From positions 1 through 34,363 of the IMG/VR virus record IMGVR_UViG_3300037119_003331: DNA of 34,363 nucleotides. The stretch is one strand, 5' to 3'. A model generated the notes under the pieces. It was not told the DNA's origin. It ran no database searches and saw only the letters and a list, made by a program, of their open reading frames with translations. Both the position numbers and the translations under genes were made by a program. This stretch comes from a virus. This document shows positions 4,804-29,684 of the stretch, piece after piece; positions within the stretch are counted from its first letter, which is position 1, and each line of letters begins with the position of its first letter.

Positions 4804-5191
4804 AGAGATAGCCGACGTATGAGGTCTTCAGCTTCTTGTGGTTGTTCCGACAATTGACCACCACGGCCACGATCGCATCGTGTCGGGCCTCGGCGATCTT
4901 CACCACACCTCTATCCGTAGCGAGAATGTCGGCGCTCGTCAGACCATGCCACCACGCCACCCGGGCGATTAGCTCCTCGGGTGGCGTGTAGTCGAGGATC
5001 GGCACCGGGGGACTGTGCAGCAACCGCCCATAGCGGCGATCGGCATCGACCAGTGCCTGCCAGTCCTGACGCTGCTCTTTCTGCCAGCGCAGCGACAGGG
5101 CGACCACCCGGTCCCGTCGAGGCGTCGGCCGGATCGGATCGTTCACCGGCTGCGCGCCGGCCATCGTCTGCCGGTATGCAACGAGGATCAT
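4685..5191 (-). CDS. DnaA domain IV-like DNA-binding protein
   Basis: This 168-residue protein has a C-terminal half resembling DnaA domain IV, the helix-turn-helix region that binds DnaA boxes: VAWWHGLTSADILATDR (about residues 73-89), a conserved helix (KIAEARHDAIVAVVV), then YLFKRDRTTVLHSLSR (about 128-143). The last stretch corresponds to the DnaA signature with a D-H-T-T-V-L-H core; here His is replaced by Arg. No Walker ATPase domain is present. Such stand-alone proteins could bind DnaA boxes in the phage origin or interfere with host initiation. The start overlaps the methyltransferase stop by 4 nt. The last 20-odd residues, Pro/Ser-rich, lie over the convergent RHH gene. Confidence 0.75.
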   Translation of the reverse strand: MILVAYRQTMAGAQPVNDPIRPTPRRDRVVALSLRWQKEQRQDWQALVDADRRYGRLLHSPPVPILDYTPPEELIARVAWWHGLTSADILATDRGVVKIAEARHDAIVAVVVNCRNNHKKLKTSYVGYLFKRDRTTVLHSLSRRGMRPSPPCRPFSSHLLQRPTSVGP

Positions 5192-13299: not shown

Positions 13300-13728
13300 A
13301 TGCCAATTCTGACCAATCCCAAGCAGGAGGCGTTCGCTCAAGGCCTCGCTCAAGGCCTCGCAAAGGTCGAAGCCTATCGCCAAGCTGGCTACAAGAAACC
13401 CTCCGATCCCGTCGCCTCACGGTTGTCAAGGGATGTCAAGGTGGCAGCACGTCTGAAGGAACTCCAAGCCAAAACCGTCGCGAAGTTCGAGGTGACCGCT
13501 GAGATGATGGCGCTCCAATTCATCGAGGATCGCTCCAACGCGATCAGATGGGGACAGGGCTCTGCCGCTCATGCCGCCAGCGTTTCCCTCGCAAAGCTGT
13601 TTGGCCTCATGGTCGAGCGCGTTTCGGTGTCGCACAACTACAGCCTGATGTCGGAGCAGGAACTCAGGCTGGAGCTTGCGTCGCTCGTCGCCGAAGCTCG
13701 ATCGCTGCGGCCGGGTGTTTCCCATTGA
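13300..13728 (+). CDS. terS: Terminase small subunit
   Basis: The ATG at 13300 gives a 142-residue protein of the Terminase_2 type, which binds the packaging site and recruits the large subunit. Visible features: N-terminal TNPKQEAFAQGLAQGLAKVE, followed by AYRQAGYKKPSDPVASRLSR, the DNA-binding helix-turn-helix pattern of the family; VAARLKELQAKTVAK; then a helical middle and a C-terminal MSEQELRLELASLVAEARSL. The AQGL repeat is encoded by a 12-nt tandem duplication (about 13335-13358). It is followed two genes later by the large subunit. Confidence 0.85.
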   Translation: MPILTNPKQEAFAQGLAQGLAKVEAYRQAGYKKPSDPVASRLSRDVKVAARLKELQAKTVAKFEVTAEMMALQFIEDRSNAIRWGQGSAAHAASVSLAKLFGLMVERVSVSHNYSLMSEQELRLELASLVAEARSLRPGVSH

Positions 13729-14056: not shown

Positions 14057-14469
14057 TGGAGCCCGTTGCCTATCGTGGCCGGATAACGAAGAACGGCTAT
14101 CTGCCTGAAAATCACGAATGGCGTGATCAGCTTTGTGACCGTGACCGAGATGGGCGTCTCGTTGGCAAAGACCCAATGGCACTATCCCTTGACGTTTTAT
14201 CTGCCAGTGGCCATCCGCAGGCCTCCGCTAGAAGCGTCTTGGCGCGATTGAAGGTTATGCATGGGGTCGAACGCGGACACGAGGAGGATTTCCCTTTCGG
14301 CGCACCCAGTCGGCTCACGGAAATTAGGGATACAATTTGCAAACCGTGCTCGGCCGACAATCTTGCGGAGGTGCGCCGTTGCTCGATCTATGATTGTCCC
14401 GCATGGCAGTTCCGCATGGGGCGCAATCCACATAATCCCCAGCGCGGCATAAATCCCTTTGCCAAATGA
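14053..14469 (+). CDS. Phage protein with four-Cys zinc-finger-like motif, 138 aa
   Basis: The C-terminal part, near residues 94-130, carries C-x2-C ... RRC-x5-C (CKPCSADNLAEVRRCSIYDC), then PAWQFRMGRNPHNP. This Cys pattern followed by a F-R-M-G-R-N-P tail occurs in phage proteins encoded near terminase or replication genes and looks like a zinc-binding module; partner unknown. The N-terminal half (RDRDGRLVGKDPMALSLDVL) has no motif I recognise. The gene overlaps both neighbours by 4 nt, so it is likely co-translated with the terminase ATPase. Confidence 0.7.
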   Translation: MMEPVAYRGRITKNGYLPENHEWRDQLCDRDRDGRLVGKDPMALSLDVLSASGHPQASARSVLARLKVMHGVERGHEEDFPFGAPSRLTEIRDTICKPCSADNLAEVRRCSIYDCPAWQFRMGRNPHNPQRGINPFAK

Positions 14470-15263
14470 GCGCCAGCATTGACCTCCCCAACCCCGAAGA
14501 ACTCGCCAGATTGCCGCTGTCAAAACAGCAGCAAATCACCGCGATCACCGCAGCTATTGTCGATAAACTTAAGCAGAGACAGTTCTTCGATCTATTTCCT
14601 GACCGTGACAGGCTCGACACAGATGGCTCTATCCTTATCTATTCCAGAGACAAGTACCCTAAGCATCTCGAATTTTTTTCCGCCGGGGCGAACTACCGCG
14701 AACGATGCTTTCTCGCGGCTAATCGAGTCGGTAAGACTACATGTGGTTCATATGAAGTAACCTGCCACCTCACCGGGCTATATCCGGATTGGTGGGAGGG
14801 CAAGCGGTTCGAGCACCCGGTGAGGATATGGGCCTGCGGGCGGCGGAATGAATCGACGAGGGATATTATCAGTGCCAGTCTTCTAGGCCCTGTCGCCTAT
14901 GATGGGGTGCGCAAAGGGCTTGCAGGTACTGGGATGATCCCCGGCCACCTGATCGGGCGCACGACATGGAAGCGCGGCGTTGAAGACCTCGTTGATCTGG
15001 TGAAGGTTCAGCATGTCGGTGGCGGGTGGTCGACGCTCGGCCTTAAGAGCTACGAGCAAGGTCGTGGCAGTTTTGAAGGAACGTCGCAGCATGTGATCTG
15101 GCTGGACGAGGAGTGTCCACAGGATGTGTATGGCGAGTGTCTAATTAGACTTATGACAACGGCCGGAATAATGATGGTTACCTTCACGCCGCTCGCTGGA
15201 ATTACGGAAGTGGTGCAGCAATTTCAGCACGCATCCGACCGCGCTCATCTTGGCACGATGTAG
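14466..15263 (+). CDS. terL: Terminase large subunit, ATPase half (split gene, N-terminal part)
   Basis: 265 residues that end just after the motor domain. Walker A variant AANRVGKT at 84-91, Walker B with catalytic Glu VIWLDEE at 210-216 and the coupling motif TFTPLAG at 239-245 show an intact DNA-packaging ATPase. The nuclease domain normally fused behind it is absent: the frame stops 18 codons after the coupling motif, and the missing part is encoded separately at 19987..20736. Terminases pump DNA into the prohead through the portal and cut it; here the two activities would be on separate chains unless RNA splicing or rearrangement joins them. The first 300 nt are AT-richer than the surroundings. 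The start overlaps the upstream gene by 4 nt. Confidence 0.9.
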   Translation: MSASIDLPNPEELARLPLSKQQQITAITAAIVDKLKQRQFFDLFPDRDRLDTDGSILIYSRDKYPKHLEFFSAGANYRERCFLAANRVGKTTCGSYEVTCHLTGLYPDWWEGKRFEHPVRIWACGRRNESTRDIISASLLGPVAYDGVRKGLAGTGMIPGHLIGRTTWKRGVEDLVDLVKVQHVGGGWSTLGLKSYEQGRGSFEGTSQHVIWLDEECPQDVYGECLIRLMTTAGIMMVTFTPLAGITEVVQQFQHASDRAHLGTM

Positions 15264-15301
15264 GCTTGAGTTACGCCTGTCTGGTGGTATGGTGGTTAGT
15301 C

Positions 15302-15376
15302 CGGGCAAGGCGAGGCACTGCACTGCCGGGCGAGGCATAGCGTAGCCATGCGAGGCTGGGCACTGCAAGGCAAGGG
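15302..15376 (+). repeat. GC-rich degenerate repeats at left border of the terL split
   Basis: In the 156-nt gap after the ATPase half, units of the type GGCGAGGCACTGC recur imperfectly (GGCGAGGCACTGC, GGCGAGGCATAGC, GCGAGGCTGGGCACTGC), bordered by GTCCGGG on both sides. A similar GC-rich stretch lies just before the nuclease half (19906..19975). It could be a recombination tract or a structured RNA. Confidence 0.55.
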
Positions 15377-15419
15377 AGGTCCGGGTTAATCCCCGGGCCT
15401 CATGCTTCCGGAGGAAGAC

Positions 15420-15776
15420 GTGAAGGACGATACCGGCGACCTGTTCAGCCACGCTCGGCGCTCCGATCCGGCGACCTCGCATGAGGCGGTGCCAAAGAAC
15501 ATCAGCGCACAGGCGCTGCGAGTCCTGTGGGGCTATCGGGACGGTGACGCAATCCTCGACCACGCCGCCTACACGCGGGTCGGGATGGACAAGACCTCGT
15601 CGAGGCTGGCTCACCAGCGCTGTAGCGATCTTCGCAAATGGGGCCATATCGAGCGCACTGGCGAGCGCGGCACGACGCCCTCGGGGAAGCGTGGCAACCT
15701 GTGTCGGATCACGCCAGCGGGGCTGGATTACCTCACAGCACACCATTGGCGCACGGCGGAGGAGATCGAGTTCTGA
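15420..15776 (+). CDS. Winged-helix-type phage protein, 118 aa
   Basis: GTG start at 15420, 6 nt after GGAGG; the ATG at 15402 overlaps that ribosome site. The product contains RRSDPATSHEAV, a short block common in phage proteins, followed by a probable winged helix-turn-helix: a helix pair (HAAYTRVGMDKTSSRLAHQR, then CSDLRKWGHIERTG) and a wing ending in RITPAGLDYL. Such proteins usually bind DNA and regulate transcription or act as replication accessory factors. It is the first gene of the block that separates the two terL halves. Confidence 0.7.
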   Translation: MKDDTGDLFSHARRSDPATSHEAVPKNISAQALRVLWGYRDGDAILDHAAYTRVGMDKTSSRLAHQRCSDLRKWGHIERTGERGTTPSGKRGNLCRITPAGLDYLTAHHWRTAEEIEF

Positions 15777-15865
15777 TGAGCAGGGCGTCGGGTGCGTTGG
15801 GTGGGCTGCTGTGGCTGCTGCTGTTCGTGGCGGCGGTGGTGGTGATCGTGGCGATAGTCCTATGA
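15776..15865 (+). CDS. 29-residue single-pass membrane peptide
   Basis: ATG at 15776 overlaps the upstream stop (TGATG); the stop overlaps the next ATG by 4 nt. Almost the whole peptide is one hydrophobic helix (LLWLLLFVAAVVVIVAIVL). A sequence this short could arise by chance, but overlaps on both sides support translation. A role in the membrane (for example a mini-holin or a regulator) is possible but unproven. Confidence 0.5.
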   Translation: MSRASGALGGLLWLLLFVAAVVVIVAIVL

Positions 15866-16128
15866 GCAATCCAGAGCATCCGCGCATTACCGAAGTTGGC
15901 CGCTTGCTGGCCGAGAACGACCGGCTGCGTGAGGAACGGGATAAGTTTCACGATGCGCTGGAACATATCGCTGCCGGGGACTTCGCCGCCCTTGCTGCAG
16001 AGAACGAGCGGCTGCGCGAGGCGCTGGAGCGGATCGAAGATGTCGATTTCGACGAGTACAGCCTGTCAGAGTTGCATGAACTTGTAACCGGCATCGCCCG
16101 CGCCGCGCTGGCGAAGGAGGGGCAATGA
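15862..16128 (+). CDS. Coiled-coil protein 1 of mosaic array, 88 aa
   Basis: Starts 4 nt inside the upstream peptide gene. Contains two copies of an E-N-x-R-L-R-E coiled-coil unit (ENDRLREERDKF near residue 15 and ENERLREALERI near 50). It ends in RAALAKEGQ, the same tail as the next gene, encoded by the same DNA, which also carries the ribosome site of the following gene. No enzymatic motif. The shared ends suggest that genes in this array recombine as modules. Confidence 0.65.
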   Translation: MSNPEHPRITEVGRLLAENDRLREERDKFHDALEHIAAGDFAALAAENERLREALERIEDVDFDEYSLSELHELVTGIARAALAKEGQ

Positions 16129-16337
16129 ACAGGTGTGAAGTATGCGGCGGCGAAGGTCTTTACCCGATCATCGATAGCCACGGGCGCGAGCGCTACAGCA
16201 TTAAATGCCCCGAATGCTTCGGCAGCGGTGAGGGCGAAGCTGAGTTGCCAAAAACCGAAACGGTAGATTTGCAGCGAGACAAGTACGAGCGGGCGATGGC
16301 CGAGAAGCGTGCCGCGCTGGCGAAGGAGGGGCAATGA
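16125..16337 (+). CDS. Mosaic array protein 2 with zinc-binding CxxCxGxG repeats, 70 aa
   Basis: Two Cys pairs of DnaJ zinc-finger type: CEVCGGEG (residues 4-11) and CPECFGSGEG (28-37). These should bind one zinc ion. The C-terminal third is helical and ends in KRAALAKEGQ, identical in its last eight residues to gene 1 of the array. It overlaps both neighbours by 4 nt. No J-domain is present, so it is not a full co-chaperone. Confidence 0.65.
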   Translation: MNRCEVCGGEGLYPIIDSHGRERYSIKCPECFGSGEGEAELPKTETVDLQRDKYERAMAEKRAALAKEGQ

Positions 16338-16702
16338 GCGACATGTCCACCGACACGACGACACCCGCAACGGACAGGGAACTCGTCCAGATCGAAGGCA
16401 AGGCACGCGCCACTACGGTTATGCACTGGCCGGAACTGGTGCGGATGATCAACCGGCTGCGGCAGGCAGAGGCCGAGCGCGACCGGCTGCGCGAGCTAAC
16501 GGAAGCCCGTGACCGTGAAGATGCCGGATGGGTAGCCGAGTTTGAGCAGGTACAGGCCGAGCGCGACCGGCTGCGCGAGGCACTGAAGAAGGCCACCGAC
16601 AAGCTTGAGCGCGCAATGGTGTTGGTCGGTTCCGACCCGGAGTTTGCCGCCATCGGTGTCAGCGAGTTTCGCGCCGCGCTGGCGAAGGCGGTGGGGAAAT
16701 GA
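16334..16702 (+). CDS. Coiled-coil protein 3 of mosaic array, 122 aa
   Basis: Contains two units AERDRLRE (near residues 47 and 80), giving a long coiled coil from about 40 to 96. It ends in FRAALAKAVGK, a diverged copy of the tail of genes 1 and 2. The AERDRLREAL unit is encoded by nearly the same DNA in gene 5 (16860..17141). Overlaps of 4 nt on both sides. Function unknown. Confidence 0.65.
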   Translation: MSDMSTDTTTPATDRELVQIEGKARATTVMHWPELVRMINRLRQAEAERDRLRELTEARDREDAGWVAEFEQVQAERDRLREALKKATDKLERAMVLVGSDPEFAAIGVSEFRAALAKAVGK

Positions 16703-16863
16703 GCGACCTGACCGAGAAGCTGCGGGATGGCATCCCTGCTTATGACGTAATGCAGGATGGCACTGAGCTTCACGACATCGATGCCGCTGAAACCCTCATG
16801 GCAGAGGCTGCCGACGAGATCGACCGGCTGCGGGAATTGCTCCTGAAGGAGGCGGGGAAATGA
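16699..16863 (+). CDS. Coiled-coil protein 4 of mosaic array, 54 aa
   Basis: Reading from the ATG at 16699 gives a 54-residue acidic protein: MSDLTEKLRDGIPAYDVMQD, with a helix EIDRLRELLLKEAGK at its end. The IDRLRELL segment is another variant of the array's coiled-coil unit. It overlaps both neighbours by 4 nt. Confidence 0.6.
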   Translation: MSDLTEKLRDGIPAYDVMQDGTELHDIDAAETLMAEAADEIDRLRELLLKEAGK

Positions 16864-17141
16864 GTGACCAAAGGTACACTGACGCGCTGCTCGCGAACGG
16901 GAAGCTGCGCGAGGAGCGGGACCGGCTGCGCGAGGAACTGAACGGGCTGCAAAGAGCACACGATCAATTGGGCGACCAGTACGCAGGGGTAGTGGCCGAG
17001 CGCGACCGGCTGCGTGAGGCGCTGATAGTTGCAAGGGCCGACATAGCCGAATGGATGAGAGTTCACCACGGCGATGATGGAAGCGAAGCCGTTTTGAATC
17101 AGATCGACGCCGCGCTGGCGAAGAAGGAGGAGACGACATGA
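16860..17141 (+). CDS. Coiled-coil protein 5 of mosaic array, 93 aa
   Basis: Three units of R-x-R-L-R-E type: KLREERDRLREELNGLQRAH (near residues 15-34) and AERDRLREAL (46-55). The end, DAALAKKEETT, is a variant of the array tail, and its DNA provides the GGAG for the next gene. Highly charged and helical. Overlaps of 4 nt on both sides. No known function; probably oligomerises. Confidence 0.65.
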   Translation: MSDQRYTDALLANGKLREERDRLREELNGLQRAHDQLGDQYAGVVAERDRLREALIVARADIAEWMRVHHGDDGSEAVLNQIDAALAKKEETT

Positions 17142-17362
17142 CCAAAGGCGAATACCGGGTAGGCGTAGACTTCAACCCGTCGAAGAATCCGACAGTGGAC
17201 AAACTGAAGGAGGCGGCGGCCGAACTGATTGACCTGATCAGCGAGATTGACGATCAGGGGGAGAACGAGATCAAGCGTCTCAAAGCGCTGGCCGCGACGG
17301 AGATTGAGAGTGCAGCAATGTGGGCGACCAAGGCCGCAACGAAGAAACCGGAAGCGAAGTGA
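17138..17362 (+). CDS. Acb2-like small helical protein (candidate anti-CBASS nucleotide sponge)
   Basis: A 74-residue protein: YRVGVDFNPSKNPTVDKLKE, then AAELIDLISEI, then EIKRLKALAATEIESAAMWA ending in TKAATKKP. A helical hairpin with a conserved A-x-T-x-x-E-x-x-x-M-W-x-x-K-A ending is what I know from the Acb2/Tad1 hairpin family of phage proteins; these form hexamers that bind cyclic di- and trinucleotide signals and so block CBASS and related defences. Length fits the family. It lies at the end of the coiled-coil array in the block between the terL halves and overlaps gene 5 by 4 nt. Assignment is from memory of the family pattern. Confidence 0.55.
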   Translation: MTKGEYRVGVDFNPSKNPTVDKLKEAAAELIDLISEIDDQGENEIKRLKALAATEIESAAMWATKAATKKPEAK

Positions 17363-17386
17363 CGCGTTGTTGAGGTGCCGGCGACG

Positions 17387-17401
17387 GGAGGTCAGACCTC
17401 C
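17387..17401 (+). other. Short stem-loop after Acb2-like gene
   Basis: GGAGGT (17387..17392), CAG loop, ACCTCC (17396..17401) in the 87-nt gap after the Acb2-like gene. No T-run follows. It may mark the end of the coupled array or act as a weak Rho-assisted stop. Confidence 0.35.
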
Positions 17402-17449
17402 GTTCCCCGCTTCCCAAGCGCATAGAAGCTAACAAACAGGAGGCACATC

Positions 17450-17770
17450 ATGCCGACGACTTACGAATCTGTTGAATCCAAGGACAAGAAAGCCGCTGCC
17501 AAGAGGGTCGATGAAGCCGCTGAAGCCAACGAGAAGCGCGCCAAGAACGAGCGCGATGAGATGGACGACACGGCCGACGACAAGGTGCGCGCCGCGAAGG
17601 ATGCGAGGGACGCGGCTGCAAAGCCGAAGGCCGAGGAGCCAAAGGCTGTCAATGTGAGCGCAGACGGTGGCAAGCCCGAAGCTGCGGATCACCGGCATGG
17701 TGACGATGCCAACCCGCATGAAGGCCCGTCCGTATCGAGCCGTCCCGGCCCGCATGGTGAAAACGGCTGA
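17450..17770 (+). CDS. Hypothetical highly charged Lys/Ala/Glu-rich protein, 106 aa
   Basis: Good ribosome site (AGGAGG) before the ATG. Residues 1-65 are Lys/Glu/Ala-rich and helical (DKKAAAKRVDEAAEANEKRA); the rest is Pro/Gly/His-rich and probably disordered. The N-terminus MPTTYESV and its upstream DNA are nearly repeated at the next gene (MPTTYDSV, 17852..18124). Function unknown. Confidence 0.6.
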   Translation: MPTTYESVESKDKKAAAKRVDEAAEANEKRAKNERDEMDDTADDKVRAAKDARDAAAKPKAEEPKAVNVSADGGKPEAADHRHGDDANPHEGPSVSSRPGPHGENG

Positions 17771-17785
17771 AGGGTGAGGTACAGC

Positions 17786-17820
17786 ATCGCCGCCAAGGGC
17801 TACATGACCCGGGCGGCGAT
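17786..17820 (+). other. Stem-loop in intergenic gap
   Basis: ATCGCCGCC (17786..17794) and GGCGGCGAT (17812..17820) form a perfect 9-bp stem with a 17-nt loop in the 81-nt gap between the two MPTTY genes. No T-run follows. Confidence 0.4.
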
Positions 17821-17851
17821 GTGGGACTGGGTAGTCAACAGGAGGAGCAAT

Positions 17852-18124
17852 ATGCCAACGACTTACGATTCTGTATCTGGACTGCCGACGTACACGCCTC
17901 CGGGCGTCGAGGGTGACGCCCCGCTCGACCCGACAGGTGGCCAGCCCGCTGATGAATCCAAGTTCGATCGGATCGAGAAGATGCTGATCGAGCTTGCCGA
18001 GAAGGTCGACCGGGTTGAGAAGTTCCTCGCCGCTCGGCCGAAGCTGTTTGGCAATGACGGCACGGCGGAGGTCAGCGGCGCTGTCAGCGGTTCCGTCAGT
18101 GGCGGCGACACCAGTGCAGGATGA
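17852..18124 (+). CDS. Hypothetical protein sharing a 5' cassette with the upstream gene, 90 aa
   Basis: The ATG at 17852 follows GGAGGAG. N-terminus MPTTYDSVSGLPTYTPPGVE, then a helix (ESKFDRIEKMLIELAEKVDR, near residues 41-60) and a Gly/Ser-rich tail. Its first eight residues and the DNA around the start nearly repeat those of 17450..17770, while the remainder differs. No known family; the helix may form a short coiled coil. Confidence 0.6.
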   Translation: MPTTYDSVSGLPTYTPPGVEGDAPLDPTGGQPADESKFDRIEKMLIELAEKVDRVEKFLAARPKLFGNDGTAEVSGAVSGSVSGGDTSAG

Positions 18125-18440
18125 TATCTCCAAGCGGGTGAAGGCGGGGATGCCTGTCGACTTCCCTGATGCTGTGTGGCAGCGGCTGAAGGCGGTCGAG
18201 GAGTTCGTCAAGACGCTGACGATGCGGATCGAGACGATAGACGAAACTGTCGACCTCAACGGCAGTGACCATGAAGAGCGCCTCGACCGGCTTGAGCGTG
18301 CGCCGGTCGAGAGCATCATCCGAAGGCGCGAGATCGCGCTGTCTATGGCCCACAATCCCGAGGATTCACCGGAGGATGTGGTGATTCGGGCGCACGCATA
18401 TCTTCGGTTCCTAGAGGGCATCGACCCGCCAAACCCCTAG
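18114..18440 (+). CDS. Hypothetical helical protein, 108 aa (start uncertain)
   Basis: Open from a GTG at 18114, which overlaps the upstream gene by 11 nt; an ATG at 18150 is an alternative. The product has DFPDAVWQRLKAVEEFVKTL and DHEERLDRLERAPVESIIRR helices. The C-terminus (NPEDSPEDVVIRAHAYLRFL) is also helical. No known family. It ends the first part of the inter-terL block before a terminator-like hairpin. Confidence 0.55.
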   Translation: MQDDISKRVKAGMPVDFPDAVWQRLKAVEEFVKTLTMRIETIDETVDLNGSDHEERLDRLERAPVESIIRRREIALSMAHNPEDSPEDVVIRAHAYLRFLEGIDPPNP

Positions 18441-18527
18441 ATGTTGTGTTTGGACGCGATTTAGAGAATAGTGCCGCGTCAACGGGTTAGAGCGCTGTCC
18501 TTTCCGGCGTTCGCAAGTTGAACTGAC

Positions 18528-18548
18528 GCCCGCCCCCTGTCGGCGGGC
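18528..18548 (+). terminator. Terminator-like hairpin before structural genes
   Basis: GCCCGCC (18528..18534), a 7-nt loop and GGCGGGC (18542..18548), followed by ATTTGCTT. The stem is strong but the T-run poor, so termination would be partial. It lies in the 131-nt gap 18441-18571. Confidence 0.45.
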
Positions 18549-18571
18549 ATTTGCTTATCAGGGGTGATCTC

Positions 18572-18877
18572 ATGGCTCTGTTCGTCACGGAATACGCATC
18601 GCTTGCGTCGGACACTTTCAGCACTGGCATTGCGGCGGCGCTTGAACCCGCGCTAGCGGAGCAGGCCATTACGATCAGCGGCACGTCTGCTGCGTCTGCA
18701 GCCTTCAATACCCGCACCTGCTTTGTAATGCTTCATGCGCAAGAGGCGGTCTGCCTGAAGTGGGGCACGGCACCGACTGCGGTGACGACGGCACAGCGGA
18801 TGGCGGCGGGGGAGACGCGGTTTGTCGGGGTGCCGCCGGGTCAGAGTTACAAGGTTGCTGGAATTGCTGGAGCTTAA
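18572..18877 (+). CDS. Probable virion-associated small protein, 101 aa
   Basis: The product starts MALFVTEYASLASDTFSTGI and is Ala/Thr-rich without Lys clusters, ending VPPGQSYKVAGIAGA. Such short beta-rich Ala/Thr/Gly proteins occur among phage head or tail genes, where they act as decoration or minor structural proteins. No firm family. It is followed 5 nt later by the paralogue of a tail-fibre domain, which supports a virion role. Confidence 0.55.
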   Translation: MALFVTEYASLASDTFSTGIAAALEPALAEQAITISGTSAASAAFNTRTCFVMLHAQEAVCLKWGTAPTAVTTAQRMAAGETRFVGVPPGQSYKVAGIAGA

Positions 18878-18882
18878 TTGAC

Positions 18883-19647
18883 GTGTCCGCAGCCAGCATT
18901 ACCTATGACACCTCTGCCACCGATGCCACTACGCGAACCGACAACGGCACCATCCCATTTTCGCTGACGGTGGCTTCTGCGGCTGGTCAGGACCGGCTGC
19001 TGATTCTTACCACCATTGGTCCTGGTGGCATTGTCGATTACGATGCGGTCACTGTTAATGGCGTTTCTGCCACCAGAGTAGGCGTGGTCGCTCGCGGGGC
19101 GACGGAGGACAACAGCAACTGCGCGCTGCTCACCGCATATCGTGTTGCCGGCACTGCATCGACATCGCTCAGTGTGGTGGCAACCATTGATTGCCCCGGT
19201 GGCGGTAACGTCTATGGCGGTATTTGCGCCTGCTTCAGGCTGAGTGCCGGGAGCTTGCTGGCGCAGACCAGCGTTCAAGGTATTTATGGGGGAGTGTCGT
19301 CCGACCCGACGCTTGACACCAACACAGTGTCGGGCGGGGCCATCCTCGCGGTCGATTGGGTTTATGACTCTAACAAAGTTCACGCTTGGACCGGCGCGAC
19401 TGAGAGATTTGATAGCGTCACTTGTGGCTATGGCGATAGCCTTTCTGCGGCCACTGCCAACATTGTGACGGGGCAAACGCCGCGTCCCATCAGCCTTGCT
19501 CGCACGAACAACGTAGTATCCGATAGTGAGAGCGCTATCGCCGTCGTGCTGTCGTTCGATGCGGTGAGCGATGGTGGCGGCGGTGGCGGCGGTGCGGGCA
19601 TCCGCAAGAGTTCTATGGTTGGCATTGGCAGGATGATGGGAAGGTAG
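18883..19647 (+). CDS. Tail-fibre-domain paralogue, structural protein, 254 aa
   Basis: GTG start at 18883 with GGAG about 10 nt upstream; the open frame from 18760 overlaps the previous gene and is not used. The protein is a single beta-rich domain: FSLTVASAAGQDRLLILTTI, then VTVNGVSATRVGVVARGATE, LLTAYRVAGTASTSLSVVAT, and ESAIAVVLSFD near the end. This follows the same order as the two repeated domains in the tail fibre at 21086..24130 (VELVVVAVSG, MTKATGG, SAIFYMV, FVAIVLKQ). It ends in a poly-Gly linker and a basic tail, so it may be a carbohydrate-binding or capsid-decorating domain expressed alone. Confidence 0.6.
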   Translation: MSAASITYDTSATDATTRTDNGTIPFSLTVASAAGQDRLLILTTIGPGGIVDYDAVTVNGVSATRVGVVARGATEDNSNCALLTAYRVAGTASTSLSVVATIDCPGGGNVYGGICACFRLSAGSLLAQTSVQGIYGGVSSDPTLDTNTVSGGAILAVDWVYDSNKVHAWTGATERFDSVTCGYGDSLSAATANIVTGQTPRPISLARTNNVVSDSESAIAVVLSFDAVSDGGGGGGGAGIRKSSMVGIGRMMGR

Positions 19648-19658
19648 AGGTGTAAGTC

Positions 19659-19868
19659 ATGGTAAACGCCCTTATTAGCTTGATCGTCTGGCTGTTGGTG
19701 ATCGGGATTATCTACGCCATCTTCGACTACGTGCTGGTTAACCTCATTCCTGACCCTCCGCAAAAGATCATTCGCGTGGTGGTCATCGTCGTTCTGGCAT
19801 TGGTTGTGGTCTTGCTATTGCTGCAGCTAATCGGCCAAGGCGGTTTCACTATGCCAAAGCTGGGGTGA
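19659..19868 (+). CDS. Two-pass membrane protein (holin-like), 69 aa
   Basis: Two hydrophobic helices, LISLIVWLLVIGIIYAIFDY (about residues 5-24) and VVVIVVLALVVVLLLLQLIG (about 40-59), separated by a short polar turn (NLIPDPPQKIIR). Size and topology fit class II holins and the small Thivi_2564-type membrane proteins of phages and bacteria. No endolysin gene is visible in the window, so a lysis role is unproven. Last gene before the nuclease half of terL. Confidence 0.6.
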   Translation: MVNALISLIVWLLVIGIIYAIFDYVLVNLIPDPPQKIIRVVVIVVLALVVVLLLLQLIGQGGFTMPKLG

Positions 19869-19905
19869 TGATGGCTGGAAAGAATGAGGGAGCCGAAGCT
19901 CCCTC

Positions 19906-19975
19906 CCTTGCCGCGCAACGGCTTGCAGTGCAGAGCCGGGCGACGCAATGCATAGCACTGCCTAGCGCGGCAGGA
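19906..19975 (+). repeat. GC-rich degenerate repeats at right border of the terL split
   Basis: The gap 19869-19986 holds a GC-rich stretch (GGGCGACGCAATGCATAGC, CACTGCCTAGCGCGGCAGG) like the one after the ATPase half. CTTGCAGTGC (19922..19931) is the reverse complement of GCACTGCAAG in the left copy (15360..15369). The stretch ends with the ribosome site of the terL nuclease half. Confidence 0.5.
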
Positions 19976-19986
19976 GTGTACCTCTG

Positions 19987-20736
19987 ATGCCGGAAATCAC
20001 AAGCTCACGATTTTTGGTGCAGGCGGGGTGGCGGGACGTGCCGCACCTCGACGAGAAAACCCAGCAGGAATTGCTCGACTCCACGCCACCTCATCTTAGG
20101 GACGCAAGATCACAAGGTGAGCCAAGCATGGGAAGTGGGGCAATTTACCCAATTCCCATAAGTGATATTGAAGTCAAACCTTTTGTTATACCTTTTGGAT
20201 GGAAAAAGGGATATGCGTTAGACGTTGGATGGAACAGAACTGCTGCCCTATGGGGCGCACAAAACCCTGTTGATGGAACATTATACTTATACAGCGAGCA
20301 CTACAAAGGCCAGCAACTCCCAGTCGTTCACGCCGCCGCGATCAAGACGAGGGGGGAGTGGATTCGCGGCGCGATCGATCCCGCTGCCGGCGGTGCCAAC
20401 CAGAAAGACGGGACGCAGCTAAAGAAGGAATATCAGGGGCTTGGGCTGATCCTGACCGACGCGGACAACGCGCTCGAATCCGGATTGATCGCCGTGTGGC
20501 AGGCGCTGGCGCTCGGGCAGATGAAGATTTTCTCCACCTTGCAGAACTTCAAAGGGGAATACCGGGTCTACCAGCGCGACGAGCGCGGCCGGGTGATGGA
20601 CGGGCAGGCCGACCACCTCCTCGACTGTATGCGCTATCTCTGGCGCACTTGGGACAGGGTCGCGACATTGCCGCCGTTGCACCCAACTCAACATGGGTCC
20701 GGCATGAAAGCGGCTGACCAGCGAGCGGGATACTGA
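19987..20736 (+). CDS. terL: Terminase large subunit, nuclease half (split gene, C-terminal part)
   Basis: 249 residues with their own ATG and an AGGAG site about 11 nt upstream. Begins with RFLVQAGWRDVPHLDEK, the linker normally found after the ATPase domain, then the RNase H-like nuclease: YALDVGWNRTAALWGA (Asp79), GAIDPAAGG (Asp131) and DHLLDCMRYL (Asp209, Asp213). The nuclease cuts DNA at the start and end of packaging. With the ATPase half 4.7 kb upstream, all motifs of a complete large terminase are present, split at the domain boundary. A patch at about 20125-20300, covering the first catalytic Asp, is strikingly AT-rich (20 G/C of 60 at 20161-20220, against 42 of 60 at 20461-20520). 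Confidence 0.9.
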   Translation: MPEITSSRFLVQAGWRDVPHLDEKTQQELLDSTPPHLRDARSQGEPSMGSGAIYPIPISDIEVKPFVIPFGWKKGYALDVGWNRTAALWGAQNPVDGTLYLYSEHYKGQQLPVVHAAAIKTRGEWIRGAIDPAAGGANQKDGTQLKKEYQGLGLILTDADNALESGLIAVWQALALGQMKIFSTLQNFKGEYRVYQRDERGRVMDGQADHLLDCMRYLWRTWDRVATLPPLHPTQHGSGMKAADQRAGY

Positions 20737-21086
20737 TGACGACGCCTGAAACCCACGTTCTGAACATCTATCGCGGCGATAGCTACGCTTGGCAGTTCGT
20801 GTTCTGGAACGATGCGGCCAAGACCGATCCCCTCGACCTCACGGATGTGACGCCGAAGGCGGAAATCCGCAACAAGCCGGGTGGCAACCGGGTCACGGAA
20901 ATCACCTGTGCGGTGACGCTGCCCAACATCATCGACCTGACGCTGCCTGCGGCTGACAGCCATACGCTTCAGCCGGGGCAGCGGGTGTGGGATTTGCAGC
21001 TAACCTATCTGAGCGGCGAGGTGTCGACGCTGGTAGCCGGTCCCGTTCTGATCACGGGTGACGTAACGGATTCGGACCCTGAATAA
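20736..21086 (+). CDS. Beta-sandwich virion protein (BppU-like N-terminal domain type), 116 aa
   Basis: A short beta-rich protein: LNIYRGDSYAWQFVFWND, DLTDVTPKAEIRNKPGG, TLPNIIDLTLPAADS and WDLQLTYLSGEVSTLVAGPV. This series of strands, beginning with a Y-R-G-D-x-Y pattern, resembles the N-terminal domain of baseplate upper proteins and related tail-fibre attachment proteins. Its position directly before the tail fibre, with a 1-nt overlap (TAATG), fits an adaptor or fibre-anchor role. Overlaps the nuclease half's stop by 1 nt. Confidence 0.65.
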   Translation: MTTPETHVLNIYRGDSYAWQFVFWNDAAKTDPLDLTDVTPKAEIRNKPGGNRVTEITCAVTLPNIIDLTLPAADSHTLQPGQRVWDLQLTYLSGEVSTLVAGPVLITGDVTDSDPE

Positions 21087-24000
21087 TGGCCATCGATGTC
21101 ACCACGACAACCCCCACGGTGGCGGCCATCGATGTCATCATAAGCTCGCCGACGATCGTCATCGACATTGCGGAGGTGTCGGGGCCGAGGGGTGATCCCG
21201 GAACGCCCGGTGAGCCCGGGCCAGTCGGGCCAGCCGGCCCAGTCGGGCCAGCCCCTCCATCGGGCGCTGGAACTGTGATTGTGCAGGCAATTGACGAGCC
21301 TCCTGATCCCGGCCTTGAGGGGGTGCAGTGGTACGACCCCTCCACGGGCGACACGCGTGTCTGGTACGATAACGCTTGGCAACCGGTGGGCGTGCCAGTG
21401 GCCAACTCGCCGACGCTTTTGGCGGGGCAGGAGGTGGGCGTCGAGGTTGGCGTTGCGCTGATCTTGACCAAGCTGCTTGATCTGCCAGTGCCGTATTTCG
21501 ATGGTGGCAACGCGTACTGGACTCAATTTCCAAACGCCCATGCGGTCGGTATGAGCAGTCCATCGTACTTTGGGTTTGGCCTGTTTTACAGCCCAACGCA
21601 TGATGGTCATGCGGAACGCGCCGCCGCTGCGGGCATCACCCATTACGATTCGACTGAAGATTACCTAGGATATCTCGCCGCTGCGCTGGATGCCGGGCTG
21701 CGTGTCAATGTTTCGTATCGTTTCTGGTCTGTTGACATGGTGGATGCGGAGGATGGCGACAGTGATCCTCTCGTCACCGGGTGGTATCTTTCTGATGAAC
21801 CGGACATGTTCCATACTTTGGCATCTGTTACTGATGAATTTAACACAGCCAGAGCTAGAGATGACGGCCGATTTGCAGCGATGAATATTGGCTTGGGCGT
21901 TACGGGTCTTCCACTTTGGAATCCGACAACTACCGACGACATGGTTCGTACTGTCGATGTTTGTACTGTCGATGGTTATGTTTATTCCAGTGCTGGCATA
22001 AGGTTTTTCTACTCCACTAGTCCATACTGGACCGGCTCCACCGACCCTGATCTGATAAGGCGATCTGCTACATATGGCTGGCAATGCGACCGGATGCGCA
22101 GCTTCCAAGACCCCGGCAACCTAAAGCCGTATGGGGTTTGCGTTGAAACGGCCGATTCGTTTCGGTTTGAGTCGGCGGAAATACCGCATATCACATTGCC
22201 GGAAATCTCGGGTGCGGTGTGGTCTGCGATCAGGCACGGCGCTCGCACCATTTCTTTTTTCCAGCACAGCAGCGACCCCGAAATCCATTTCTATTCGATC
22301 ACCGGTATCGGTGATCCCCTCACCGGTTATTCCGGCCCCGGCGTTCCTTACATTCGTGAGCACGTCACGGATTTGACCTCTGAGGTGGCTGCATTAGCCG
22401 AGGTGATCGACGGCCCGACTTACGAGTGGGATTTTGGCGACGCCAACGTCGACACGATGCTTAAGGCGTATAACGGTGACGCCTACATCTTTGCTGGTCC
22501 GTCGTTAAATTCGCCGCTGCCGGGGCGCGGCACGACGGACATTGAGCAAGTCGGCGAGGTTCTGGAGTTCCAGTTTACCGATACGAGCGAAACCGGGACG
22601 GTATCGAGCGCCATCGAGGTCGCGGCGGATGTCGAGCTTGTAGTGGTCGCGGTGTCCGGCAGGCACGGCACGAACAACGGCTTTGCCTCGATGACGTTCA
22701 CGCAGAGCGGCGTTGACACGGCGATGACGAAGGCCACGGGCGGCGATGCGTCGGGCGCGTCTTGGCAGTCTGCGATCTTCTACATGGTCCTGCCAGACAC
22801 GGGTGCCAGCAAGAGCCTCAAATGGGACTGGCTTGGCGCTGCCAGCGATGGCGAGCGTGTGATCGCCGTCACCTTCTGGAAGGGCATCGATCTCGCTATT
22901 CCCGTTCGTGACAGCGACGGCTTTCAAGATACCGGGTTTGCGCTTGAAACGACGATACTGGTTGAAACGTCGGCATTGGATGTCGCGGACGGCGATCTGG
23001 TTCTGGGGTTCTGCGGCATGTACAACCCGGACGAGGATGGCCTCGCCAAGGTCAATGTCTTCCATCACATGACCCGGTTGGCTGACCTAGATTACGAAGG
23101 CAGTGCGGAGGGGATGCTGGCGACCGCGACGCCGGATGGCAATTGCACGTTTGGATTTACGAACGTCACAGTGGCGACCGAGGCAGCATTCGTCGCGATT
23201 GTCCTCAAGCAGGCCACCCTTCAAGCTGTCACCAGCACCATCACTCAGGTCGGCACAATTACTAACTTCGCGACGGTTGGCACCACAGCCAACTCTGGCG
23301 TCATAGGCCCCATCACTGTGCCTGTCGGCACTGAGATCGCCCTCGTCGCCGCTTTCGGGCGCGTCGGAGTGGCTGACGGTTTTGCCACGGTAACCATGAC
23401 GAAGAGTGGGGTTGATACCCCCATGACGCGACTGGTCGGCGGTGATGTAGACCCTGACGTATGGCAGTCTGCGTTGTTCTACATGGTCGAGCCTGATACA
23501 GGCTCTAACGTTGTGACATGGGATTGGGCCGGTGCTTCTAACGCGGTTGTCCCTACCGTATTTTCCGCCATGTTTTTGGAAGGTGTCGACCTCGCCGATC
23601 CGATCCGTGACAGCGACGGTGAGCAGCTTCATATTCAATATGTAGGCGGTCCTATGGAGGAATTTCCGTTAGAACTGCCGATGCTGACCAATCGGGAGGG
23701 CGACCTGCTCGTCGCGTTTTTCGGTGGGTTCCGTCAGAGTGCTACGGAAGGCAGCATCGATGTCTGGAAGAACCTTACGCTTCATACGCAGGGCTTGGCT
23801 ACCGACTTCTGGGATTACGCATGGGCTACCAGCGAGGTGATTGGCAGTGTGACGGTTGGTATAGAGGAGGCTACTGTGTTTACTCAGGGCGGACTTGTTG
23901 CCGTCGTTCTCAAGCCTGCCGCAGCGGTTACGCCTGCCACGCCTGACGTAGAGCCCCCGACAACCGACCGCTCCATCATCACTGCGACGTTTACGCTGCC

Positions 24001-24130
24001 GCCCGATCTGGCAGGCGCGACCGATGTCGAAGTGCTGAACGAGAGCCGGACAATCCCGGTTGTTGCCGGGGAGTTCGAGGACACGTTCGATGAGGAGTTC
24101 ACCTATCACAACTACAGGATACCGATATGA
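21086..24130 (+). CDS. Tail fibre with collagen-like stalk and glycoside hydrolase-like domain
   Basis: A 1014-residue fibre. N-terminus of beta-strands (1-30); collagen-like Gly-x-Pro repeats at about 32-56; then a probable TIM-barrel glycosidase at about 130-430 with GITHYDSTEDYLGYLAAALD, LRVNVSYRFW, GWYLSDEPD (232-240, Glu238 a candidate acid/base), VDVCTVDGYVYSS and HGARTISFFQHSSDPE. Two tandem copies of a beta domain follow (about 500-710 and 735-960), both with V-D-T-x-M-T, WQSA-FYMV, PDTG and PIRDSDG blocks. The same domain occurs alone at 18883..19647. The protein likely binds and degrades a capsular or exopolysaccharide. Glycosidase assignment rests on pattern only. Confidence 0.75.
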   Translation: MAIDVTTTTPTVAAIDVIISSPTIVIDIAEVSGPRGDPGTPGEPGPVGPAGPVGPAPPSGAGTVIVQAIDEPPDPGLEGVQWYDPSTGDTRVWYDNAWQPVGVPVANSPTLLAGQEVGVEVGVALILTKLLDLPVPYFDGGNAYWTQFPNAHAVGMSSPSYFGFGLFYSPTHDGHAERAAAAGITHYDSTEDYLGYLAAALDAGLRVNVSYRFWSVDMVDAEDGDSDPLVTGWYLSDEPDMFHTLASVTDEFNTARARDDGRFAAMNIGLGVTGLPLWNPTTTDDMVRTVDVCTVDGYVYSSAGIRFFYSTSPYWTGSTDPDLIRRSATYGWQCDRMRSFQDPGNLKPYGVCVETADSFRFESAEIPHITLPEISGAVWSAIRHGARTISFFQHSSDPEIHFYSITGIGDPLTGYSGPGVPYIREHVTDLTSEVAALAEVIDGPTYEWDFGDANVDTMLKAYNGDAYIFAGPSLNSPLPGRGTTDIEQVGEVLEFQFTDTSETGTVSSAIEVAADVELVVVAVSGRHGTNNGFASMTFTQSGVDTAMTKATGGDASGASWQSAIFYMVLPDTGASKSLKWDWLGAASDGERVIAVTFWKGIDLAIPVRDSDGFQDTGFALETTILVETSALDVADGDLVLGFCGMYNPDEDGLAKVNVFHHMTRLADLDYEGSAEGMLATATPDGNCTFGFTNVTVATEAAFVAIVLKQATLQAVTSTITQVGTITNFATVGTTANSGVIGPITVPVGTEIALVAAFGRVGVADGFATVTMTKSGVDTPMTRLVGGDVDPDVWQSALFYMVEPDTGSNVVTWDWAGASNAVVPTVFSAMFLEGVDLADPIRDSDGEQLHIQYVGGPMEEFPLELPMLTNREGDLLVAFFGGFRQSATEGSIDVWKNLTLHTQGLATDFWDYAWATSEVIGSVTVGIEEATVFTQGGLVAVVLKPAAAVTPATPDVEPPTTDRSIITATFTLPPDLAGATDVEVLNESRTIPVVAGEFEDTFDEEFTYHNYRIPI

Positions 24131-24420
24131 GCGGGGCGCAGATCGGTGTCGGCTCGGTGATGGTCGCGACGACCAGCGACGGTGGTCATCCGCCTGAGTT
24201 CTACGTGGAAGGCATCATCGCCAAGCTGATGCATGTTTCGGAGACGGCACCGCCCGTAATTCGCGAGCAGGCAAAGGCTTATCGGGAGACATTGCGGCAG
24301 ATCGTGCTGACCGGGGTGAAAGGCGCGATCCTGTCTAGCCATACCACCACTATCGCGAAACTGCGCAAGGCCGGGATGCAAGAGGCAGCAAGCCTCGTCT
24401 ACGATCTGCACAGGAGATAG
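24127..24420 (+). CDS. Hypothetical helical protein, 97 aa
   Basis: Overlaps the tail fibre stop by 4 nt. Begins with a short strand region (SGAQIGVGSVMVATTSDGG), then is helical: REQAKAYRETLRQIVLTGVK and KLRKAGMQEAASLVYDLHRR. No family recognised. Position after the fibre suggests a tail-associated or assembly protein. Confidence 0.65.
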   Translation: MSGAQIGVGSVMVATTSDGGHPPEFYVEGIIAKLMHVSETAPPVIREQAKAYRETLRQIVLTGVKGAILSSHTTTIAKLRKAGMQEAASLVYDLHRR

Positions 24421-24423
24421 ATT

Positions 24424-24867
24424 ATGGCCTTTACCGGCAATTATGTGTGCAACAGCTTCAAGTGGAATCTGGCGCTGGGCGTTCATAATTTCACGCCATC
24501 GACTGGCAATACATTCAAAATAGCGCTTTACACAAGCTCGGCTACGCTGACGGCTTCGTCCAACAACTATACAGCCATTGGCGAGGTGGCTACGGGTGGT
24601 GGCTATACAGCGACGGGACAGGCGCTGACGGTTGCGACGGGATACCCGACGCTGTCCGGGTCAACGATTCTCATCGATTTCGAGGACGCGACATGGGCTG
24701 CGTCCACCATCACGGCACGCGGGGCGATGATTTACGACGACACTTCCTCGGGCGATCTATCGGTGGTGGTCCTCGATTTTGGTGTCGACAAGATCACTGC
24801 CGGCGGGGATTTCTCTGTGGTCTTCCCGCCCGCCAATACGACACGCGCCATCATTAGGATCGTCTGA
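24424..24867 (+). CDS. Phage structural protein, Thr/Ala-rich, 147 aa
   Basis: Starts MAFTGNYVCNSFKWNLALGV and continues with FKIALYTSSATLTASSNNYT, TGGGYTATGQALTVATGYP, ATWAASTITARGAMIYDDTS, and FSVVFPPANTTRAIIRIV. This combination is typical of a phage virion protein of about 140-150 residues found near head-tail genes. Exact position in the particle unknown. The gene precedes the portal by 1 nt. Confidence 0.7.
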   Translation: MAFTGNYVCNSFKWNLALGVHNFTPSTGNTFKIALYTSSATLTASSNNYTAIGEVATGGGYTATGQALTVATGYPTLSGSTILIDFEDATWAASTITARGAMIYDDTSSGDLSVVVLDFGVDKITAGGDFSVVFPPANTTRAIIRIV

Positions 24868-24868
24868 C

Positions 24869-27268
24869 ATGGCTGACATGATGGTGATGAATCCCCCGAC
24901 TTCGCAGCCGCAACTGCCGCAGTCGTTGCAGCGGCCGTTGAAGGCTCCGTCTCGGGAGATGATGCGGGAGATCGTCGGTCGACATGAGGCCGAGGTGAAC
25001 AGCCGGATCGGCAAGCGGCAGAGCTTGGAAACGCGCTGGATCGAAGACCTTGAGCAGTATCACGGGCGCTATGACCCGGCGACAGCCAAGGTGCTGGCCG
25101 ATGAGGAGCGGAGCGGACTGTTCATCAACGCGACGCGGCCGAAGACGGATGCGCTCGCGGCGCGGTTGAAAGACCTGCTTTTCCCGACCGATGAGCGGAA
25201 CTGGGGCATCAACCCGACCCCGGTTCCGGAGCTTTCGGACGAGGTAGAGGCCGCCTCGCAGGCCGCGCGCGAGAAGATGAAGCAGGCGCAGGCCGCGCAG
25301 GCGGCACCGCAACAGGCGGTTGAGAACGAGGCTCCGCAGGAGGAGATTGCTGCGCTCGATCAGCAGGCGGCCGTGGCACAGCAAGAGGCCGATACGGCGA
25401 AGGAAGCCGCCAATGTGCTGTCGGCTCAACTGGAGGAAGGTCGCAAGCGGGCCGACCTCATGGAGAAGGAGATCGACGATCAACTGACGGAATGTAAATA
25501 CCAAGCCGTCAAGCGCCGGCAGATCGATTGCGCGTGCAAGCTCGGAACCGGGGTGACGAAAGGGCCGGTCACTGGGGACAAGGTGCGGCGCGGCTGGAAG
25601 CCAGACGAGCAGAGCGGCGAGCACAAGCTCGACATCTCGACTGGCAAGCAGCCAGCCTATCGCTACGTCGACATCTGGGGCTGGTTTCCGGACATGGATG
25701 TGGTCGACATCAATGACGCCAACGGCTGCTACGAGCGCTACCTGATGAACCGGCGCATGTTGCGCGGTCTGGCTGTGCTCGACGGATTCGACAAGGACGC
25801 GATCCGCCGCCTCCTTCAGCTTGCCCCCAACACCACGGCACCGTCCTATTTGTCGCAGCTTCGCAACATCCGCGCCGCCACCCAGCAAGTGACTGGCGAC
25901 CTCTATCATGTTTACGAATATACGGGGCCGCTGGAGCCGGATGATCTCAGGACTATCGCGCTCTGGATGCGGCAGAGCCTAGACCAGACGGTCAGCGGGA
26001 TAGCCAACGAGGCGCTGATACAGGTGGAGGAGATTGATCCGCTGGTGTCGGTCAATGCCTGTCTGTGGTTCTGCCAAGGCGAAATTCTCAAGCTGGCGAT
26101 CTACCCGTATGACTCGGGCGAGACGATGTATTCGGTCTTCAACCTCGCGAAGGACGAGGCGTCAGTTTTTGGGTACGGAATGCCGGCGATCATTCGCGAT
26201 CCGCAGTCAGCGCTGAATGGCGCTTTCCGGGCGATGATGGACAATGCCGGGGTGTCGAGCGGTCCGCAGGTGATCATCGACACCCAGAACATTGAGCCCG
26301 AGGATGGGGATTACAGGCTCAAGCCGCGCAAAATCTGGAAGGCAAAGAACGGCATTCAGAAGGAAAATCCGCCGTTCCAGCTATTCCATGTCGAGACGCG
26401 GCAGGACGAGATGATCAACATCATCAATCTCGTCGAGCGGTTTATCGACTCGATGTCGATGGTGCCTCAGATCATTCAGGGGCAGACCGGGGAAGTCGGC
26501 ACGCAGAACGTGATGAACACTGCGCTCGGCACCGCGATCCTGCACAATTCCGCCAATGTGACGTTTCGCTCGATCGTCAAGAGCTTTGATGACGATGTGA
26601 CCACGCCGGACATCCGGAGGATTTACGATTGGAACATGCAGTTCAACGAGAAGCCCGACATCAAGGGCGACTATCAGGTCGACGCTCGCGGTAGCTCTGT
26701 GCTGCTGATGCGGGAGATGCAGGCTCAAAACCTGATGGTCATTGCGATGCAGCTTGGCGGACATCCGATCTACGGCCCGATGTTGAGAAACCGCGAACTG
26801 CTCCGCAAGATTTTCCAAGCCTACATGGTGCCGGCGGAAGAGGTGATGCTGGGCGACGATGAGATTGACGCAATTCTCGCTGCGGCTGCGCAACAGAGTG
26901 AGGCTGCGATTGCGGCACAGGCTGCGGCCGAGAGCGAAAAGAAGAAGATGGAGCTTGAAAACCGCAAGCTCGAACTGCAGGCGGCGCAGGCCAATCAGGA
27001 GAATGCCAGCCGCGAGAAGATCGCCAAGCTGAATTACGACTCTCAGATGAACGTGATGGCGGCGAAGCTGAATATGTCGGTGCAGGAGCTTGAGGCGATG
27101 CTGGCCGGCAAGGAGATGGATCACGCCAGCAAGGAGCGGATTTTCGCGTCCGAGGTGGCGATCGAGCAGAAGAACGCAGCCGAGGCCCGTGCGCGAGGCG
27201 AGGTGCCGGGCGGCTCCGGTGGCTACGTCACGGGCGGCTCCAAGCCGAAGAAGAAGGCTGCAGCATGA
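24869..27268 (+). CDS. Portal protein (large podovirus type)
   Basis: Start at 24869 gives 799 residues; the open frame beginning at 24779 overlaps the previous gene. Portal proteins form the dodecameric ring at one capsid vertex through which DNA is packed. Visible: RHEAEVNSRIGKRQSLETRW (about 35-55), ERSGLFINATRPKTDALAAR and DLLFPTDERNWGI, a long Ala/Gln/Glu-rich coiled-coil insert (about 135-200), then the clip and wing region (GWFPDMDVVDINDANGCYER, MVPQIIQGQTGE). A second long Lys/Glu/Gln-rich coiled coil fills the last 120 residues, perhaps the barrel. The length is at the upper end of the range for podovirus portals. Stop overlaps the next gene by 4 nt. Confidence 0.88.
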   Translation: MADMMVMNPPTSQPQLPQSLQRPLKAPSREMMREIVGRHEAEVNSRIGKRQSLETRWIEDLEQYHGRYDPATAKVLADEERSGLFINATRPKTDALAARLKDLLFPTDERNWGINPTPVPELSDEVEAASQAAREKMKQAQAAQAAPQQAVENEAPQEEIAALDQQAAVAQQEADTAKEAANVLSAQLEEGRKRADLMEKEIDDQLTECKYQAVKRRQIDCACKLGTGVTKGPVTGDKVRRGWKPDEQSGEHKLDISTGKQPAYRYVDIWGWFPDMDVVDINDANGCYERYLMNRRMLRGLAVLDGFDKDAIRRLLQLAPNTTAPSYLSQLRNIRAATQQVTGDLYHVYEYTGPLEPDDLRTIALWMRQSLDQTVSGIANEALIQVEEIDPLVSVNACLWFCQGEILKLAIYPYDSGETMYSVFNLAKDEASVFGYGMPAIIRDPQSALNGAFRAMMDNAGVSSGPQVIIDTQNIEPEDGDYRLKPRKIWKAKNGIQKENPPFQLFHVETRQDEMINIINLVERFIDSMSMVPQIIQGQTGEVGTQNVMNTALGTAILHNSANVTFRSIVKSFDDDVTTPDIRRIYDWNMQFNEKPDIKGDYQVDARGSSVLLMREMQAQNLMVIAMQLGGHPIYGPMLRNRELLRKIFQAYMVPAEEVMLGDDEIDAILAAAAQQSEAAIAAQAAAESEKKKMELENRKLELQAAQANQENASREKIAKLNYDSQMNVMAAKLNMSVQELEAMLAGKEMDHASKERIFASEVAIEQKNAAEARARGEVPGGSGGYVTGGSKPKKKAAA

Positions 27269-27402
27269 TCAGGTGGTTTCGATGCTGGATGTGCTGGTGC
27301 CCCGGCCGGGTGGTTAGCGGCTGGCGCAAAGGCACCCTGCATATCGGCTGGTGCTGCAACGACTGCGGAATGGTCAAATACTATGATCGGGCAGGGACAT
27401 GA
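27265..27402 (+). CDS. Cys-rich mini-protein, 45 aa
   Basis: ATG overlaps the portal stop by 4 nt. Reading gives MIRWFRCWMCWCPGRVVSG, later WCCNDCGMVKYYDR: a C-x2-C-x-C and a CC-x2-C cluster separated by 21 residues, the layout of a zinc ribbon. The stop overlaps the next start by 4 nt, supporting real translation. No known family. Confidence 0.55.
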   Translation: MIRWFRCWMCWCPGRVVSGWRKGTLHIGWCCNDCGMVKYYDRAGT

Positions 27403-27629
27403 TCGACGCGTACACCGACACTTGGCGTGCTGTCGCTGCGAAGGCCAACGAGATGATCGAGGCCTGTCGCGCGCGGCTTGAGCAGAACGACCAATCGTAT
27501 GGCGAGAGCCAATTTCTGCGCGGCCGGATCACGGCGATGCGGGAGATTCTGGAGATGGCAAAGCCCGCCGTCATCAAAACGGGCACCGTGCCGCAGGATT
27601 TCCGATCCCGCGATCGAAGCGGCGTTTAA
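27399..27629 (+). CDS. Hypothetical helical protein, 76 aa
   Basis: Helical protein with two likely helices, RAVAAKANEMIEACRARLEQ and GRITAMREILEMAKPAVIK. Position between portal and scaffold, with a 4-nt overlap upstream, suggests a head assembly or chaperone role, but no motif supports a name. Confidence 0.6.
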   Translation: MIDAYTDTWRAVAAKANEMIEACRARLEQNDQSYGESQFLRGRITAMREILEMAKPAVIKTGTVPQDFRSRDRSGV

Positions 27630-27647
27630 CAGCAAAAGGGGTGAGAC

Positions 27648-28574: not shown

Positions 28575-28606
28575 GGGATTGAGCGGAACCCAAAGGGTCC
28601 GCACCA

Positions 28607-29602: not shown

Positions 29603-29615
29603 CTTTACTTAAAGG

Positions 29616-29664: not shown

Positions 29665-29684
29665 AACTCAAAGGAGTCTTCGCT

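Follow-up and report, generated by a model that had tools for sequence, protein, structure and literature searches.

A probable two-chain terminase large subunit, cut within its ATPase domain, in a phage family with repeated terL splits

The terminase large subunit (TerL) is a usual marker gene of tailed phages, where a single chain carrying both an ATPase and a nuclease is treated as universal (e.g. PMC7824862). PaP3 p03, for example, has both activities in one 482-residue chain (PMC3488191), and packaging models depend on a lid subdomain that passes ATP hydrolysis on to the nuclease domain (PMC5727402). Interrupted terL genes have been described: that of ICP1 is split by an intron and rejoined by splicing (PMC10448857), and that of Campylobacter phage IBB_35 holds an intein and an intron (PMC10448857, PMC3322345). 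Genes in pieces are represented by NrdA, an essential phage enzyme made as two functional peptides in association with a homing endonuclease, as Friedrich 2007 is cited in PMC10448857 and PMC5418858. In the open-access literature we came across intron or intein cases and unrelated splits but no two-chain TerL; priority is thus not established. Here we analyse the terL locus of IMG/VR virus record IMGVR_UViG_3300037119_003331 (positions 1 to 34,363; this whole stretch of 34,363 nucleotides is called the window), whose phage most probably uses a natural two-chain TerL, the chains presumably assembling physically to function.

Two open reading frames (ORFs) on the plus strand encode the halves, at 14466..15263 and 19987..20736, separated by 4,723 bases in ORF coordinates. 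An initial annotation, made from the letters alone, had given these limits and had read the ATPase motifs in the first half and an own ATG, ribosome site and acidic residues in the second; all of this was borne out. The first half (265 residues) comprises N-terminal helices and an additional-strand catalytic glutamate (ASCE) core, and stops shortly past the coupling motif. Its Walker A motif, AANRVGKT (14715..14738), is invariant or nearly so in relatives (alignments A1 and A6). Invariant residues are D214, E215 and E216 of the Walker B motif with its catalytic glutamate, VIWLDEE (15093..15113), and T239, T241 and P242 of the coupling motif TFTP (15180..15191). It matches Pfam Terminase_6N positions 1-148 (6.6e-17), and an AlphaFold model of the isolated chain has a high-confidence fold (predicted local distance difference test, pLDDT, 89) that in Foldseek resembles D6E TerL and HK97 TerL; a sequence search of the PDB with the profile of this half gave zero matches.

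The second half (249 residues) has a Shine-Dalgarno-like AGGAG (19972..19976) 10 bases 5' of its ATG. It matches Terminase_6N 156-211 weakly and then Terminase_6C, also weakly, and both a profile search (E=1.5e-58) and Foldseek (3.2e-16) align it with the nuclease domain of P22 gp2 (4dkw). The RNase H-like nuclease domain spans 20128..20646, and of its conserved acidic residues D79 is invariant in relatives and D209 and D213 nearly so. Both halves therefore fold as parts of a TerL in structure models and Foldseek searches. On the full-length TerL profile phrog_2, the ATPase half covers 231-418 and the nuclease half 419-596; the halves meet without a gap, and therefore no residues were lost at the junction, a point for which the initial annotation had proposed alignment with intact homologues. 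An intact relative, EBPR podovirus 1 gp39, aligns to both halves, with 49% and 54% identity, and each half is found once in the 34 kb record. By their ATPase motifs, nuclease residues and neighbours, namely a terminase small subunit (TerS) gene at 13303..13728 on the plus strand, 5' of the ATPase half (phrog_51, E=1.6e-11), and a portal/head-tail adaptor gene at 24779, the halves are assigned from sequence to the P22/LUZ24-type TerL, except that ATPase and nuclease do not lie on one polypeptide. Two PHROGs families each match one half alone, phrog_31467 (261 positions, the length of the ATPase half; 4e-82 against it) and phrog_5653 (199 positions) for the nuclease half, so that half-TerL genes may sit unrecognised in reference data.

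The initial annotation had placed the split at the domain boundary, in the usual interdomain linker, and in this it was mistaken: the second half begins about 40 residues before the linker, inside the ATPase domain. In D6E TerL the lid holds Y213 and R224 and the linker is 230-241 (PMC5727402; the PDB chain numbering seems shifted by 3). The last part of Terminase_6N matches the beginning of the second chain, which also aligns with D6E TerL (5oe8) N-terminal to the nuclease domain, whereas the P22 nuclease crystal construct (4dkw) aligns only from about residue 48, at MGSGAIYP. Residues 7-47 (20005..20127, plus strand) thus correspond, on the 5oe8 alignment and the published domain limits (PMC5727402), to the last ATPase-core strand and the lid helices; from this alignment and knowledge of TerL folds, residues 7-15 would be the strand itself. 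The structure model has a disordered stretch at residues 1-11 and helices at 23-32 and 35-43, as expected of a strand and a lid deprived of the ATPase core, and W15, P19, H20 and L21 are invariant in relatives. The nuclease chain therefore carries the lid subdomain and the last core strand, and the other chain the ATPase core. Because the cut lies inside the motor domain, the pieces very probably must reassemble to work.

Scans of viral and genome collections yielded about 120 loci with both halves. After correction, 57 were split and 66 intact, a ratio that is not a prevalence because the queries were split sequences; 45 of the split loci have distinct junctions, and two loci whose ORFs run off the contig end (L042 and L047) were not counted as split. 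The 66 intact loci also answer the search for an uninterrupted terL in related phages that the initial annotation had suggested. All breaks, apart from one or two loci where the position was not measurable, fall in one loop: the stop lies 20-34 residues after TFTP and the new start 4-15 residues before a W-D-D motif (27 and 14 in the window), and in all but two of the intact relatives 28-60 residues separate TFTP from W-D-D. In 21 split loci the halves overlap or lie at most 10 bases apart, nine of them with ATGA and five with TAATG, overlaps that are typical of translational coupling. The spacing is 0.15-2.7 kb in the other split loci, 4.7-9.2 kb in the window and those close to it, and about 11 kb in L084. 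The split loci come from many metagenomes and from about 15 named isolates, cultured alpha-, beta- and gammaproteobacteria. Prophages with a split TerL are found in Aminobacter, Fulvimarina, Azospirillum, Sphingopyxis, Novosphingobium, Eilatimonas, Roseomonas, Herminiimonas, Vibrio galatheae, Kushneria and Chromohalobacter, and a complete Endozoicomonas plasmid carries a split TerL whose second half is annotated 'hypothetical protein'.

Splits arose or reverted repeatedly in this family. On a tree of 93 rows the split or intact label changes 15 times, at least eight of them by well supported branches. A single origin, with all split rows in one clade, was rejected (approximately unbiased test, p=8e-6). 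The window lies in an all-split clade of 15 rows (support 100/96), in which the halves lie as little as 0-8 bases (Kordiimonas, Fulvimarina) and as much as 9.2 kb apart; this range within an all-split clade indicates that there the split probably preceded the insertions. Elsewhere in the family an HNH/NUMOD4 gene is the only gene between the halves of L066, which is surrounded by intact relatives on the tree; in L087 such a gene is the first past the ATPase half, and an HNH gene (L119) or an endonuclease VII gene (L039) lies between the halves of two further loci. These HNH genes in the break suggest that homing-endonuclease insertion is one route to the split, as for nrdA.

We propose that a first chain of 265 residues would supply the ATPase core, and a second of 249 residues the RNase H-like nuclease, preceded by the last core strand and the lid (transmission) subdomain. 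Translated separately, the two would come together on the portal by non-covalent contacts to make a working TerL. The family would tolerate breaks where the cut lies, in the loop that follows the coupling motif and precedes the last core strand. In the lineage of the window the gene probably first split into adjacent genes, unrelated small and fibre-associated genes accumulating between them later; elsewhere HNH-type endonuclease genes placed exactly in the break may have been one way for a split to arise. A natural two-chain terminase was among the options of the initial annotation, and it is the one strongly favoured by dozens of independent split loci, versions with overlapping genes, purifying selection and genomes that hold each half just once. 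Certain points weigh against it. The case is built on sequence and on single-chain models, each half having been modelled alone; several split loci are prophages, and no split phage is known here as infectious; the search for another TerL used a general TerL profile, which may have missed a terminase of an unrelated family; the window record is a linear fragment; and the collection was seeded with split queries.

The alternative that survives best, though it is improbable, is that the chains act without assembling, in which case the ATPase core would translocate unaided, like phi29-type motors, and the nuclease chain would cut independently. Separate genes could be expressed in unequal amounts, and the isolated ATPase half folds with high confidence. 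However, the ATPase chain lacks the last core strand and the lid, and these same residues are conserved on the nuclease chain: a comparison of 13 nuclease genes from the clade gives pN/pS values of 0.199 for the orphan ATPase segment, which includes the four invariant residues named above, and 0.194 for the nuclease. The orphan segment is thus as constrained as the nuclease itself.

Prophages, which may be defective, account for some split loci, and this would suit a terL in decay with another terminase doing its work. We consider this very unlikely. In split pairs with unsaturated dS, the ratio of nonsynonymous to synonymous substitution rates (dN/dS) is 0.04-0.27 for both halves, with one exception, and the catalytic motifs are conserved. 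Four relatives of 54-64 kb have one ATPase half and one nuclease half each, and the general TerL profile found no further TerL in them. Strong purifying selection together with a single copy of each half makes decay unlikely and points to reassembly of the chains. The exception is the ATPase half at L112:10001-10705 (dN/dS 0.52), which has low identity to a close relative and may hold a local frameshift or a sequencing error.

Rejoining by RNA or DNA processing, which the initial annotation had offered as a further option, found no support: no Rfam intron, intein domain, conserved junction sequence or recombinase was recognised. Introns do occur in terL, that of ICP1 being spliced (PMC10448857), and a split or trans-spliced intron might in principle rejoin the halves at the RNA level. 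Yet Rfam scans of ten split loci came back empty, and in the window the sole match, snoRNA-like, was sub-threshold. Each half carries a stop or start codon of its own, no conserved sequence was found at the junctions, and the overlapping stop and start codons of many relatives leave no space for an intron, so that this explanation is hardly credible. The same holds for excision of the block from DNA to restore an intact terL, or joining of the proteins by a split intein. Both processes are known in other systems, but no recombinase or intein domain was recognised; on the TerL profile the halves meet without extra residues, and stop and start codons stand at fixed places. The block also differs in content and length among close relatives, and some genes that the halves enclose in relatives are outside them in the window. 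Misassembly, conceivable for a metagenomic contig, is refuted for the clade: the arrangement recurs in metagenomes of independent origin and in the genomes of isolates, including a complete plasmid, and a second contig (L082) is 100% identical to window positions 16235-30733, across the insert-nuclease junction. For the window itself misassembly is the least credible explanation.

The block between the halves (15264..19986, plus strand) consists of about 13-15 small phage genes, among them coiled-coil paralogues, fibre-associated genes and a small membrane protein; no recombinase or endonuclease gene was recognised among them. The gene at 18572..18877 (plus strand) has homologues between the halves of four close relatives (L003, L006, L009 and L087; 63-68% identity), and the small membrane-protein gene at 19659..19868 (plus strand) adjoins or lies near the nuclease half in the same four (40-54% identity). 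Gene content and length of the block otherwise vary among close relatives. Their DNA similarity ends at most about 14 bases past the ATPase stop, or before it, and resumes within a few bases of the nuclease start; no sequence is conserved at either junction. In the window, the genes at 24127 and 24424 (24127-24867) come 3' of the nuclease half; the four relatives have them between the halves, and in these relatives DNA homologous to the portal gene comes right after the nuclease half. The nuclease half has thus moved relative to nearby genes, as an independent gene would. The initial annotation had also considered that a multi-gene element entered terL; genes do lie within the former terL, but given the variable content and length, the Fulvimarina halves 8 bases apart and the abutting Kordiimonas halves, later accretion explains the block best.

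Other features of the region were noted. GC-rich GGC/GCA-type repeat patches (e.g. GCAAGGCGAGGCACTGCA) occur at 15300-15375 and 19915-19975, near both block ends, some inverted relative to each other and possibly mobile or recombinogenic; as recombination borders they were rejected, the relatives' junctions that were compared sharing no such sequence. At 15862-17141 a run of small genes with a repeated coiled-coil motif, RDRLREAL, looks like tandem paralogues, and two gene starts of 38 bases (ribosome site and MPTTY; 17435-17472 and 17837-17874) are 84% identical. Promoter and terminator patterns in the block are near chance level. Outside it, 5188-7455 on the minus strand encodes a 755-residue protein whose two ends both match DNA methyltransferases and which may contain an inserted domain.

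A two-chain TerL would make questions about the motor directly testable, since natural separation of the ATPase core from the lid and nuclease bears on whether force needs a covalent link and on which subunit a lid acts on, its own or a neighbour. The recurring break offers a natural series, from intact genes through overlapping ones to halves 9 kb apart. Annotation misses the second half, as on the Endozoicomonas plasmid, and TerL trees may omit split-TerL phages. More speculatively, and with little likelihood, the motor could be a hetero-oligomer: the lid-nuclease chain would attach in trans to the ATPase ring, perhaps exchangeably or in smaller numbers, and cutting and translocation would be regulated separately; the split might also aid escape from TerL sensors such as Avs, for which an Avs3-terminase structure among the fold matches of the nuclease half is the sole hint.

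The locus shares family, motifs and order with the single-chain TerL of P22 gp2, LUZ24-like PaP3 p03 and EBPR podovirus 1 gp39, and its halves together align to the whole protein; in contrast to these, each one gene and one chain, it has two genes and two chains, cut within the ATPase domain. Like ICP1 and IBB_35 it has a terL that is interrupted in the genome, but unlike in ICP1 no splicing element was found in the window and own stop and start codons bound each half. In the herpesvirus terminase genes UL15/UL89 other genes likewise interrupt a terminase gene, but there a eukaryotic gene is spliced and yields one protein. Like NrdA it is an essential phage enzyme in two pieces, here both under selection to stay functional; apart from the enzyme itself, the difference is that most TerL splits have no endonuclease between the halves, and that of the window has several kilobases of ordinary phage genes instead.
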